Shown piece by piece: positions 42,279-62,122 of a stretch of DNA of 64,000 bases; positions within the stretch are counted from its first letter, which is position 1, and every line of letters begins with the position of its first letter. The position numbers and the translations under genes were made by a program. Under the pieces are notes generated by a model. The model saw only the letters and a list, made by a program, of their open reading frames with translations. It was not told the DNA's origin and searched no databases. Origin of the DNA: Candidatus Aramenus sp. CH1 (GTDB lineage: Archaea; Thermoproteota; Thermoprotei_A; Sulfolobales; Sulfolobaceae). Location: NCBI GenBank assembly GCA_022678445.1, contig JALBWU010000007.1:1-64000 (forward strand), given 5' to 3'.

Positions 42279-42369
<91 letters not shown>

Positions 42370-44295: not shown

Positions 44296-45077
44296 GGGTA
44301 CTAAAGGCAATAGGGATTTTTTTAGCCCTCCTCCTATCCCTTCCCGTACTAGTCCTAGTATACATGGGCTTTTTCGTTTTCAATTCACCACAAGCTTACT
44401 CCTCAACCTTCTTGAATAGCGTTCTCCTCACGGTCACCTCTTCTGCCACTGCAGTCGCAGTGGACTTCGCCCTCTTCACCCTGCTCTCCTACTACCTCTC
44501 CAGGAACAGGGATCTCATCGCCGACTCCCTAGCTGACGTCCCTGCATCAATACCCCACCCCATCGTAGGGGTTGCCTTAGTGTTCTTGGACAGCCCCTAC
44601 ACCCCAATAGGGGACTTCCTGAGAAGCTTGGGGATAAACTTCTTCGACACATACCTAGGGTTGACATCGGCGTTGGTGGTGGTCTCAGCGCCCATCTACA
44701 TTAAGAGCTTGAAGAGCTTCTTCGACTCCCTCCCCAGATCATACGAGAATTACGCGAGGAGCCTTGGGGCTGGAGAGCTCAGGACTTTCTTTTCCGTCGT
44801 GTTCCCAATGTCATATAAGGGGATCGTGACGTCCCTCCTCGTTGCCATGTCTAGGGCCATGAGCGAGTTCGGTTCCATCGCCATCATATCGTACTACGTG
44901 TTGGGAGGGCCATTTAACGGCGTTACCCCTGCGCCCATCCAGATATACGAGTACTTTGGTTATTACGGCCCAGGGGTAGCGGTGACCGCCTCGGCGATAA
45001 TGATCGTAATAGGCATAGCTGTCCTAGCGACAGTAAGGGTAGTACAGTACAAGTTAGGTGGGGCCGCCGGGATTTGA
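44292..45077 (+). CDS. wtpB: ABC transporter permease, tungstate/molybdate type (WtpB-like)
   Basis: 261 residues, about six hydrophobic helices. NYARSLGAGELRTFFSVVFPMSYKGI is the EAA-type loop (E-x-x-x-x-G) that contacts the ATPase. ATGA overlap with wtpA. The last 19 bases, including the stop, lie inside the 3' end of tRNA-Pro on the opposite strand, so the final residues (KLGGAAGI) come from T-arm and acceptor sequence. No ATP-binding subunit gene follows in the usual third position. Confidence 0.87.
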   Translation: MRVLKAIGIFLALLLSLPVLVLVYMGFFVFNSPQAYSSTFLNSVLLTVTSSATAVAVDFALFTLLSYYLSRNRDLIADSLADVPASIPHPIVGVALVFLDSPYTPIGDFLRSLGINFFDTYLGLTSALVVVSAPIYIKSLKSFFDSLPRSYENYARSLGAGELRTFFSVVFPMSYKGIVTSLLVAMSRAMSEFGSIAIISYYVLGGPFNGVTPAPIQIYEYFGYYGPGVAVTASAIMIVIGIAVLATVRVVQYKLGGAAGI

Positions 45078-45156
45078 ACCCGGGACCACCAGCGTTCTGG
45101 TGGTTAGGGAACTTATCCCCAGGCTGGCATCCTAGTCCATGCTAGACTACGGCCCC
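45059..45156 (-). tRNA. tRNA-Pro(GGG) with 22-nt intron
   Basis: Acceptor GGGGCCG/CGGCCCC, D arm GTCT...GGAT, anticodon stem CCAGC/GCTGG, variable loop TGGTC, T arm CCGGG-TTCAAAT-CCCGG, discriminator A. The loop is CTGGGG, then a 22-base intron, then C; CTGG pairs with CCAG at the intron's 3' side to make the central helix of a bulge-helix-bulge. Splicing at 37/38 gives anticodon GGG. CCA is not encoded. The 3' end overlaps the permease stop. Confidence 0.9.
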
Positions 45157-58793: not shown

Positions 58794-58818
58794 ATGGGAA
58801 CTTGGTACAAGATGGGAA
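58783..58818 (+). repeat. 18-bp tandem repeat duplicating the amt start codon
   Basis: CTTGGTACAAAATGGGAA (58783-58800) is followed directly by CTTGGTACAAGATGGGAA (58801-58818), one mismatch. Each copy includes an in-frame ATG (58794 and 58812), so the duplication doubles the start codon and adds six residues. Confidence 0.9.
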
Positions 58819-60332
58819 ACAACCACAAGAAATTGTTTATCCTGTCCGTCCTTTTATTGCCAATAATGTTCAGTTTAATATCCATTTCTTCAACGGGAAA
58901 CGTAACCCAAGAGATACAATCGCTAAACGCCTCCATTGCAGCGTTAACCAACCACACCGCTGACTACCCAGCAGTGGCAGTCCCCTCTTGGTTGGACACC
59001 GGTAGCAACTCGTGGATGCTAACAGCAGCTACATTCGTAGGCCTCCAGAGCGTCCCAGGAGTAGCTCTTTATTACGCTGGTCTGTCCAAGAAGAAGTACG
59101 CCGTTAACAGCGCACTGATGGTCTTCTACGCGTTTGCGGCCGTGTTAATAGTCTGGATAATAGCTGGATACAACTTCGGCTTTGGAAAGCCTACTCTAGA
59201 GATTAACGGCTACGGCATACTAGGCACTCCCCTGCCTGCGTGGCCCGGTAGCTACGAGGGATCCCAGACCATATACGGGCCTGCAAACACTCCTTTGGAC
59301 ATCCCGACCTCTACATACATATTCTTCCAGTTTGTCTTCGCCGCAATAACCCCTGTACTACTGGCTGGTGGGGTGCTAGAAAGGATGAACTTCAAGGCAT
59401 GGATGCTGTTTGTGCCTTTCTGGTCTCTCCTGGTGTACAGCCCCGTTGCGTACTGGCTCTTCGCTGGTGGGTGGCTTAACCAACTTGGAGCTGTTGACTT
59501 CTCAGGAGGTTACGTGATACACGTTGATGCCGGAGTTGGAGCGCTTGCAGCAGCGTTGGCAGTTGGACCCAGGCTGGCATCTGAGAGGAAACTCGAAGCG
59601 CACAGCTTACCGCTAGTCTTGGCTGGGGCAGGACTCATATGGCTAGGTTGGGACGGGTTCAACGGGGGTGACCCAGGAGGAGCGACAATAGACGCCGCAA
59701 TAGCTGTGCTCAACACTAACATAGCTACCGCCGCGAGCGCCATAACTTGGATGCTGATGGACATAACATTCTTCAAGAAGCCCACGCTTGTTGGGGCGAC
59801 TAGTGGAGCAATAACTGGACTAGTGGCAATAACCCCCGCAGCAGGTTACGTCAACGGGCTCTACGCCATACTTATAGGCATAGCTTCCGGCTCTATACCG
59901 TGGTTAGCTCTGTACAAGTTGGAGCCGAAGCTGAAGGTTGACGACACCTTGGGCGTGTTCTCCACCCACGGAATAGCGGGTATAGTAGGAGGAATACTCA
60001 CCGGAGTTTTCGCAGACCCCAACGTGACAAAGTACGTGGACCCGGTCCTAGTAGGTGGGCTTTACGGCAACTGGGCACAAGTAGGGATACAAGCCTTGGG
60101 AGCAGCAGTGGTGTTCGTCTACGACTTCGCGATAACGTTTGGGCTATTGAAGCTCATAGGCCTATTCATACCTCTACAGGCGCCTCCTGACACCCTACAA
60201 GTTGGAGACTACGCAATACACGGAGAAGTTGCCTACTCTGAGCTACTGGCAACGCTGCCTAGTGCCAAAGAAGAAGAGGTAAAGAAAGAGGTCGCCAAGA
60301 ACCCGAAGGAGGACAAACAGGAGGGTAAGTGA
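58794..60332 (+). CDS. amt: Ammonium transporter (Amt/Mep family)
   Basis: 512 residues from ATG 58794; ATG 58812 is equally likely because of the duplicated start. N-terminal hydrophobic segment resembles a signal sequence, then 11 helices. [21 protein letters not shown] carries the family's early motif, [16 protein letters not shown] the central His pair region, and [21 protein letters not shown] the second His of the twin-His pore. No glnK regulator gene is adjacent. The stop is four bases from the D box of the antisense-strand sRNA. Confidence 0.95.
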
Positions 60333-60335
60333 GAG

Positions 60336-60385
60336 TCAGAGCTGCAGTGTTTTCTTCACTACTCAAGCCGCCCATCGCTCATCAT
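60336..60385 (-). ncRNA. C/D box sRNA, predicted guide for 16S C1402 2'-O-methylation
   Basis: Minus strand: C box ATGATGA (60385-60379), a 12-base D' guide GCGATGGGCGGC (60378-60367), D' box TTGA (60366-60363), C' box-like GTAGTGA (60362-60356), a 16-base D guide, and D box CTGA (60339-60336). The D' guide pairs with the universal 16S segment CCGCCCGTCGC over 11 positions with one G-U; the fifth base from the D' box faces C1402 (E. coli numbering), a site that is 2'-O-methylated in bacteria and eukaryotes. Size, box order and guide length are standard for archaeal C/D sRNAs. D guide target not identified; C' box is weak. Confidence 0.75.
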
Positions 60386-60422: not shown

Positions 60423-60434
60423 TTTAAATTTAAA
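60423..60434. promoter_or_regulatory. Palindromic TATA element between sRNA and tRNA-Ala
   Basis: TTTAAATTTAAA is self-complementary. On the plus strand it lies about 27-38 bases before tRNA-Ala; on the minus strand about 38-50 bases before the C box of the sRNA. It could drive both RNAs in opposite directions. Confidence 0.55.
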
Positions 60435-60460
60435 TATCTTCTGTCCAAGAGTAGTGTAGT

Positions 60461-60534
<74 letters not shown>

Positions 60535-60871
60535 CTCAGCGACGAACCCTTCTCTATCCCTTTGCATCTTTACACGAAAGTCTCCGCGTACTCTATCTTA
60601 AGTAATTGGGCTGGCTCCTCGCCAATATTTGAGTCCCGTACTTTAAAACCCAGGAAATCACCGTTAAGGAGCCATGGCACTTCCTCAATGACCTCTCAGG
60701 CTCCACCGCGCTAGATTGCGAGCATCAGAGCACGCACGAGAAAGAGGAAATCTGGACGAGGAAGTGCCTAAGACTCCGTGTCTTGAGTTTACCTTAGCCT
60801 TTACACCTTTCACTACGGCTTCCAGTCGACCAAATCCTCATTGCTCAACCTTTGGTGCTCTCGTTTACGCT
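60535..60871. other. 337-bp stretch with possible gene remnant
   Basis: No supported gene. A plus-strand open stretch from about 60655 to 60798 reads TVKEPWHFLNDLSGSTALDC and then a His/Glu/Arg-rich tail, which looks like debris of a transposase-type gene, but no family can be named. The open frame 60716-61045 continues into the arginine deiminase gene and is not thought real. Confidence 0.35.
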
Positions 60872-62122
60872 TTAACTTCTGTGCAACGCTATAGTCATGC
60901 AGTGTATTCCCCCAAACCCGCCCGTGATCTCTCCCACGTCTGTCACCACGTAATCTATGCCCAGCTCTCTTACCTCCCTTTTCCTAGGGAAGAACGAGTT
61001 GTCGACCTTCAGCCTAGAGTACTCCCCCCTTACCTCCTCCAGTAACTTAGCGTACCCCCTCCTCTGCAGATAGGACATAACGTTCTTTGAGTTTACCTCC
61101 GAGTCCAGGGCTAGGATTTTGCCGTTGTCAACCGTAAGGAAGTTGGTGGAGTAAGCGATCTGCTCGAGTAGGCTCACCTCAACCAGCGTGAAGCCCTTCT
61201 CCTTGAAGAACTCCAGCAAGTTAGTCCTCCTCTTCAGCACGTAGCCCCTCTCCCCCAGCTCAAAGACCTCAGTAGTCGCAGTCTCAAGCGTCTTCCTGTT
61301 GCCGACTACCACTCCCTCCATTGGCGCGTTCAAGTACATGTCCAAGTGCATTGCCAGCATGTAGTCGTTCTCGTGGACTGAGGGGTTGTACACCACTGCG
61401 ATCTCGTTGAACCCCGTAGCTTCAGCCACTTGAAACGCTCCCGCAATGCTAGTCCTGTCTCCGACTCCAAGTACTGCAAAGTCGCCAAAGGGCATGTAGT
61501 CCCCGCCCTCCGCGAATGCCGGTTCGGTTACCTCCTTTATCACGCGTTCCGAAAGCCCTTTCAATGCTAGCTTCACCAAGGTCGTCTCCCTAGCCCTTAT
61601 CCTCTTGCTCATCCTCCCTATCACTACCCCCCTGTCAGTGACTACTGCTTGGTCCCTCGTGAAATACAAGTTGGCTAAGGGCTCCTCGTTGATGACCCTC
61701 GGCGTCGATTCCTCAGTGCCCAACGCCTTGTGGGTTAATACAGTGGGCTTGAGGAGGATAACGTTAAATATGGTCTCGGGGTCCAGCCTTTCCACGTCCC
61801 TCTTGAACTCCCTTACTTCTCCCTCTAGATCTCCCTCGCCCTCGAACCTTATGTAGTTTAAGGACTCAGAGCTGAGCTCCTGGAGGAAAGACTTGTCGTT
61901 TTTTGCCCTCTCCACTATGACGTCCTTCAGCTTGTACACCCTCACTCCCATTTCCCACAAGGTCCCCTGCATCCTCCTGTGTTCCTCTACTGCCTTTGAG
62001 AAGTCGAACCTTCTCATGTAAAGGAAGGACTCCGGGTCTAGGATACCGTAGAACATCTCTATGCCCGGCTCGTGGACCATTACAGTTCTGAGCCTCTGCC
62101 ACTCGGCCTTTATTGCTGACAT
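60872..62122 (-). CDS. arcA: Arginine deiminase-like amidinotransferase-family enzyme
   Basis: 416 residues, usual length for arginine deiminase. YFTRDQAVVTDRGVVIGRMSKRIRARET holds the F-T-R-D and M-x-x-x-x-R-x-x-E motifs, AEGGDYMPFGD the catalytic acid region, HLDMYLN the active-site His, and GGFGGIHCMTIAL the nucleophilic Cys near the C-terminus. Predicted to convert arginine to citrulline and ammonia. No ornithine carbamoyltransferase or carbamate kinase gene is adjacent, so the full ADI pathway is not evident here. The ParA-like gene lies upstream on the same strand. Confidence 0.87.
   Translation of the reverse strand: MSAIKAEWQRLRTVMVHEPGIEMFYGILDPESFLYMRRFDFSKAVEEHRRMQGTLWEMGVRVYKLKDVIVERAKNDKSFLQELSSESLNYIRFEGEGDLEGEVREFKRDVERLDPETIFNVILLKPTVLTHKALGTEESTPRVINEEPLANLYFTRDQAVVTDRGVVIGRMSKRIRARETTLVKLALKGLSERVIKEVTEPAFAEGGDYMPFGDFAVLGVGDRTSIAGAFQVAEATGFNEIAVVYNPSVHENDYMLAMHLDMYLNAPMEGVVVGNRKTLETATTEVFELGERGYVLKRRTNLLEFFKEKGFTLVEVSLLEQIAYSTNFLTVDNGKILALDSEVNSKNVMSYLQRRGYAKLLEEVRGEYSRLKVDNSFFPRKREVRELGIDYVVTDVGEITGGFGGIHCMTIALHRS

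Follow-up and report, generated by a model that had tools for sequence, protein, structure and literature searches.

Positions 60336 to 60385 of the window, by which we mean the whole 64-kb stretch of DNA analyzed here, very probably hold the gene of an archaeal C/D box sRNA of approximately 50 to 60 nt. Its D′ guide would place fibrillarin for the ribose methylation of the cytidine equivalent to C1402 of E. coli 16S rRNA (Cm1402), a universally modified nucleotide of the decoding center.

Read from 60385 to 60336, the minus strand gives ATGATGA-GCGATGGGCGGC-TTGA-GTA-GTGAAGA-AAACACTGCAGCT-CTGA (Table 1). The initial annotation had described here a C box, a guide of 12 bases, a D′ box, a C′-like box, and a D box CTGA, and this description is correct to the base. 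Features that characterize the C/D sRNA class are present, with a box C and a box D that bound an RNA in the range of 50 to 70 nt, a C′/D′ pair with a short spacer, and a guide of approximately 12 nt directly upstream of D′ that forms 11 base pairs with 16S rRNA. The D′ box, UUGA in the RNA, differs from the consensus CUGA in its first base only, and a terminal stem beside boxes C and D was not evident in the genome of the window or in its genus-mate. A regular expression for the C/D′-C′/D array matched nowhere else on either strand of the 64 kb, and the same expression found no array in 60 first-order Markov simulations.

Table 1. Positions of the predicted sRNA, its elements, and the neighboring features in the window.
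Feature	Position	Strand	Basis or remark
C/D box sRNA, box C to box D, unannotated (predicted)	60336..60385	-	Predicted D′ guide for 16S C1402; boxes and conservation in relatives
C box ATGATGA (consensus RUGAUGA)	60379..60385	-	Four-box pattern
D′ guide GCGATGGGCGGC, 12 nt	60367..60378	-	11 of 12 nt pair with 16S CCGCCCGTCGC; N+5 is C1402; core invariant in the alignment
D′ box TTGA (consensus CUGA)	60363..60366	-	Four-box pattern; CTGA at the same register in some relatives
C′ box GTGAAGA, after the 3-nt spacer GTA	60353..60359	-	Four-box pattern
D guide AAACACTGCAGCT, 13 nt	60340..60352	-	Best match to own rRNA is 8 bp, at the 23S hairpin at the E. coli H63 position; not significant by shuffling
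D box CTGA	60336..60339	-	3 nt from the amt stop codon
amt, ammonium transporter (PF00909)	58794..60332	+	Convergent neighbor; stop codon TGA at 60330-60332
tRNA-Ala(CGC)	60461..60535	+	Divergent neighbor, 75 nt from the sRNA
A/T-rich near-palindrome TTTAAATTTAAATA	60424..60437	.	Between the sRNA and tRNA-Ala; core also in the genus-mate

The organism’s own 16S rRNA gene is masked (N) at the target site in the assembly, and the 16S of the genus-mate G001 was used in its place. A search of the genome with RF01959 returned no 16S, most of the gene being masked, and only a fragment of 371 nt, recovered with the help of the genus-mate’s 16S, is unmasked; this fragment is 97% identical to the genus-mate’s sequence. 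On this substitute, GCGATGGGCGG pairs with CCGCCCGTCGC, in the 3′ part of the 16S rRNA at the start of helix 44, at 11 positions, one of them a U-G pair, just as the initial annotation had claimed. Its assignment of the target by the fifth-base rule was also borne out on the genus-mate’s 16S, where the fifth nucleotide upstream of D′ faces C1402 (N+5 rule; numbering checked on rrsH of E. coli MG1655). The exact target is present in the genus-mate and in nearly all full-length relatives examined. Among 16S sites with a paired N+5, CCGCCCGTCGC ranked first in all 12 genomes for which a guide could be compared with a readable 16S. The guide is GC-rich, and complementarity by itself is weak evidence, given that 300 shuffles yielded 7 guides (approximately 2%) that scored equally well on 16S plus 23S, which makes the pairing alone only moderately unusual. 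The initial annotation held that architecture and target together are unlikely to arise by chance; conservation is what decides. Taken with the alignment described below, these comparisons support a predicted methylation at the C1402 equivalent directed by the D′ guide.

A BLAST search with a 76-nt region against 60 relatives found copies in most members of the family, with matches that centered on box C and the guide and lay in otherwise unrelated surroundings. The sequences suggest that the organism belongs to Sulfolobales. A pattern made of the C-box core, the guide, and D′ was present in 18 of the 19 sampled genomes of the family. Across the phylum, it matched 30 of 398 genomes (18 in the family, 8 in the rest of the order, and 4 outside it), and a reversed control pattern matched once in the same 398. 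The four matches outside the order (L081 to L084) are not clearly C/D sRNAs; L081, L082, and L083, all from a single genus farther away, have in common ATGAAAC(G/T)CGATGGGCGGTCTGACGCC, which may belong either to a C/D sRNA or to some other transcript. When a strict pattern was run over a broad genome collection, from which near relatives may have been left out, only 3 matches were obtained, all bacterial and near the number estimated for chance (approximately 2), a result that does not weigh against conservation. An alignment of 20 sequences showed no variation in the guide core CGATGGGCGG, in the GA of D′, or in parts of C, C′, and D, whereas the D guide varied. The D′ box itself reads TTGA, TCGA, TAGA, GTGA, CTGA, and others in the relatives, yet its register never moves, and the distance from the guide to D′ is exactly 12 nt in every aligned copy. 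Many copies outside the window’s genus carry a GC-rich terminal stem whose two sides covary (such as GGGC/GCCC, GGCC/GGCC, and AGCCC/GGGCT). A longer sequence between D′ and C′ was seen in L089, L090, L091, and L092, from other families of the order, some of these sequences resembling short hairpins. The search of related genomes proposed at the outset thus recovered a near-invariant guide in varied contexts, and this conservation is the decisive evidence by which the array at 60336 to 60385 is confirmed, at the level of sequence, as a real feature.

The second guide varies. Pairing of the D guide (core CATTGTAGC) with 16S GGYTACAATGGC, with A1236 at N+5, is seen in genus g5 and several lineages of the order. 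The corresponding sequence in g10 and the window’s genus is CACTGCAGC, with which the GGYTACAATGGC pairing is broken at two positions. The 23S hairpin at H63 was considered as a target for this form, but its 8 bp were reached by 57 of 300 shuffled sequences, and G012 has the same D-guide core without that 23S sequence, which further disfavors it. Two genomes from a different genus extend the match to the hairpin to 9 bp.

In the window’s genus and in G008, the sRNA and tRNA-Ala(CGC) are divergently oriented. Several g5 genomes have the sRNA directly after this tRNA on the same strand, and elsewhere it lies close to other tRNAs or diverges from them. In the g5 loci (L100, 1420 to 1550; L008, 1424 to 1545; L011; and L015), the sRNA begins a few nucleotides after the tRNA, an arrangement that suggests cotranscription of tRNA and sRNA as a dicistronic RNA. 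The near-palindrome TTTAAATTTAAATA of the window is possibly a TATA element for one or both of the divergent genes, the sRNA and tRNA-Ala. Close to both, a gene for an arginine deiminase family protein (PF02274) occupies 60872 to 62122 on the minus strand. For two other tRNA genes of the window (42279 to 42369 and 45057 to 45156), ARAGORN gave no clear anticodon, probably due to introns.

Fibrillarin, Nop5, and L7Ae-family proteins are encoded in the genome, and RsmI was found above its curated cut-off in none of 31 genomes, the window’s included. The weak TIGR00096 matches that are present fall below the RsmI cut-off and probably correspond to other members of the tetrapyrrole methylase superfamily. 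Since the core proteins are encoded and no RsmI reaches the cut-off, guided methylation is the likely route to Cm1402 in this organism. In such a scheme, the RNA would be transcribed, perhaps from the A/T-rich element shared with the divergent tRNA-Ala, and then trimmed. The C/D and C′/D′ pairs would form a k-turn and a k-loop and bind L7Ae, Nop5, and fibrillarin. Base pairing of the D′ guide with CCGCCCGTCGC would then set fibrillarin on the nucleotide that faces the fifth base upstream of D′, and the product would be Cm at the P-site position numbered 1402 in E. coli.

Other explanations of the locus were weighed against this one. The RNA could be a genuine C/D sRNA whose main role is that of a folding chaperone for rRNA, which would hold the helix 44 strand during 30S assembly, with C1402 methylation minor or absent. 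Such a role has been proposed for archaeal C/D sRNAs (PMC7994747), and in the part of the order where the second guide pairs with GGYTACAATGGC at A1236, one RNA could join two segments of the 16S. Nevertheless, we consider this very unlikely as the main function, since the constant 12-nt spacing between guide and D′ in all aligned copies is what would be expected for modification of a specific nucleotide, a Cm has been modeled at the equivalent position in Pyrococcus abyssi, and pairing of the second guide with GGYTACAATGGC is absent from the window’s own lineage.

It is highly improbable that the element, instead of being a guide RNA, regulates the amt mRNA as an antisense or 3′ untranslated element, even though 3 nt separate its box D from the stop codon of amt, which is on the opposite strand. 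The guide is also conserved where the gene has no amt beside it and lies near tRNA-Ala(CGC) or other tRNAs, and the conserved part is the guide and not the amt-proximal end; the changing context among the relatives argues against a cis-antisense role. We give almost no credence to a chance resemblance with no RNA gene behind it. The C and D boxes are short and roughly one shuffled guide in fifty pairs equally well with rRNA, but the array was absent from all the simulations, and the family-wide pattern stands against the single control match among the 398 genomes. A guide RNA for Cm1402 is therefore the explanation that we retain.

In bacteria, C1402 carries m4Cm, whose ribose methyl is made by RsmI, and the modified cytidine contacts the P-site codon; in these organisms, the methylation influences both the choice of start codon and read-through of UGA (PMC5053481). 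At the equivalent cytidine of eukaryotic 18S rRNA, numbered Cm1703/1705, Cm1638/1639, or Cm1641/1645 depending on the source, the Cm is guided by SNORD43/U43 in humans, snR70 in yeast, and AtU43 in plants (PMC11542601, PMC3511168). The initial annotation’s attribution of the site to RsmI in bacteria and a snoRNA in eukaryotes agrees with these sources (PMC5053481, PMC11542601, PMC3511168). RsmI acts on the same nucleotide with the same 2′-O-methylation but is a stand-alone protein without a guide RNA, whereas SNORD43, snR70, and AtU43 are, like the RNA predicted here, C/D guides for the equivalent cytidine but are eukaryotic RNAs. Whether archaeal and eukaryotic guides are related by common descent or convergence is left undecided in PMC3511168. 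Among archaea, Cm1376 was modeled in the P. abyssi 30S subunit at the equivalent of E. coli C1402 (C1374 being C1400), with no guide RNA named for it (PMC7005279); the numberings differ, and PMC11542601 gives the site as Cm1369. It is the same position in a different archaeal lineage.

An archaeal RNA, sR12, was predicted to guide the snR70-equivalent site, according to the part of PMC3511168 that cites Gaspin et al. 2000, where it is said to occur in both crenarchaea and euryarchaea and a figure shows sequences from Sulfolobus and Pyrococcus. As described there, sR12 is likewise a C/D box sRNA with the same predicted target nucleotide. Neither the mark at this site, found in all three domains, nor the prediction of an archaeal guide for it is new (PMC3511168, PMC7005279), and the RNA of the window most likely fills the predicted sR12 function in its lineage. 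The Rfam family named sR12 (RF01147) scored 19.0 bits on the window’s gene against a gathering cut-off of 38, and the guide found here departs from the weak guide consensus of that family; RF01147 may be a different RNA from the sR12 of PMC3511168. No Rfam C/D family reached its gathering threshold on the gene or in 18 related loci, so that the locus, which coding-gene annotation misses as the initial annotation had said, is missed by the Rfam thresholds as well. A literature search for the guide sequence gave no match, and the sites predicted in Sulfolobus acidocaldarius at E. coli A1408 (PMC4644070) do not fit the register of this guide.

The mark at C1402 is made by a protein in bacteria and directed by a guide RNA in eukaryotes. 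Turnover is generally rapid among archaeal guides (PMC7994747), and against that background the near-invariance of this guide suggests a strong constraint at the C1402 site in these archaea, one that the relatives allow to be examined. We put forward only tentatively, and regard as rather doubtful, the wider proposal of an unbroken archaeal guide family for the sole small-subunit ribose methylation common to bacteria, archaea, and eukaryotes, with the D′ guide kept through the family and parts of the order and the D guide retargeted, to 16S A1236 in several lineages and to another target in that of the window. If true, such a family would provide a test case for the common descent of archaeal guides and SNORD43/snR70.
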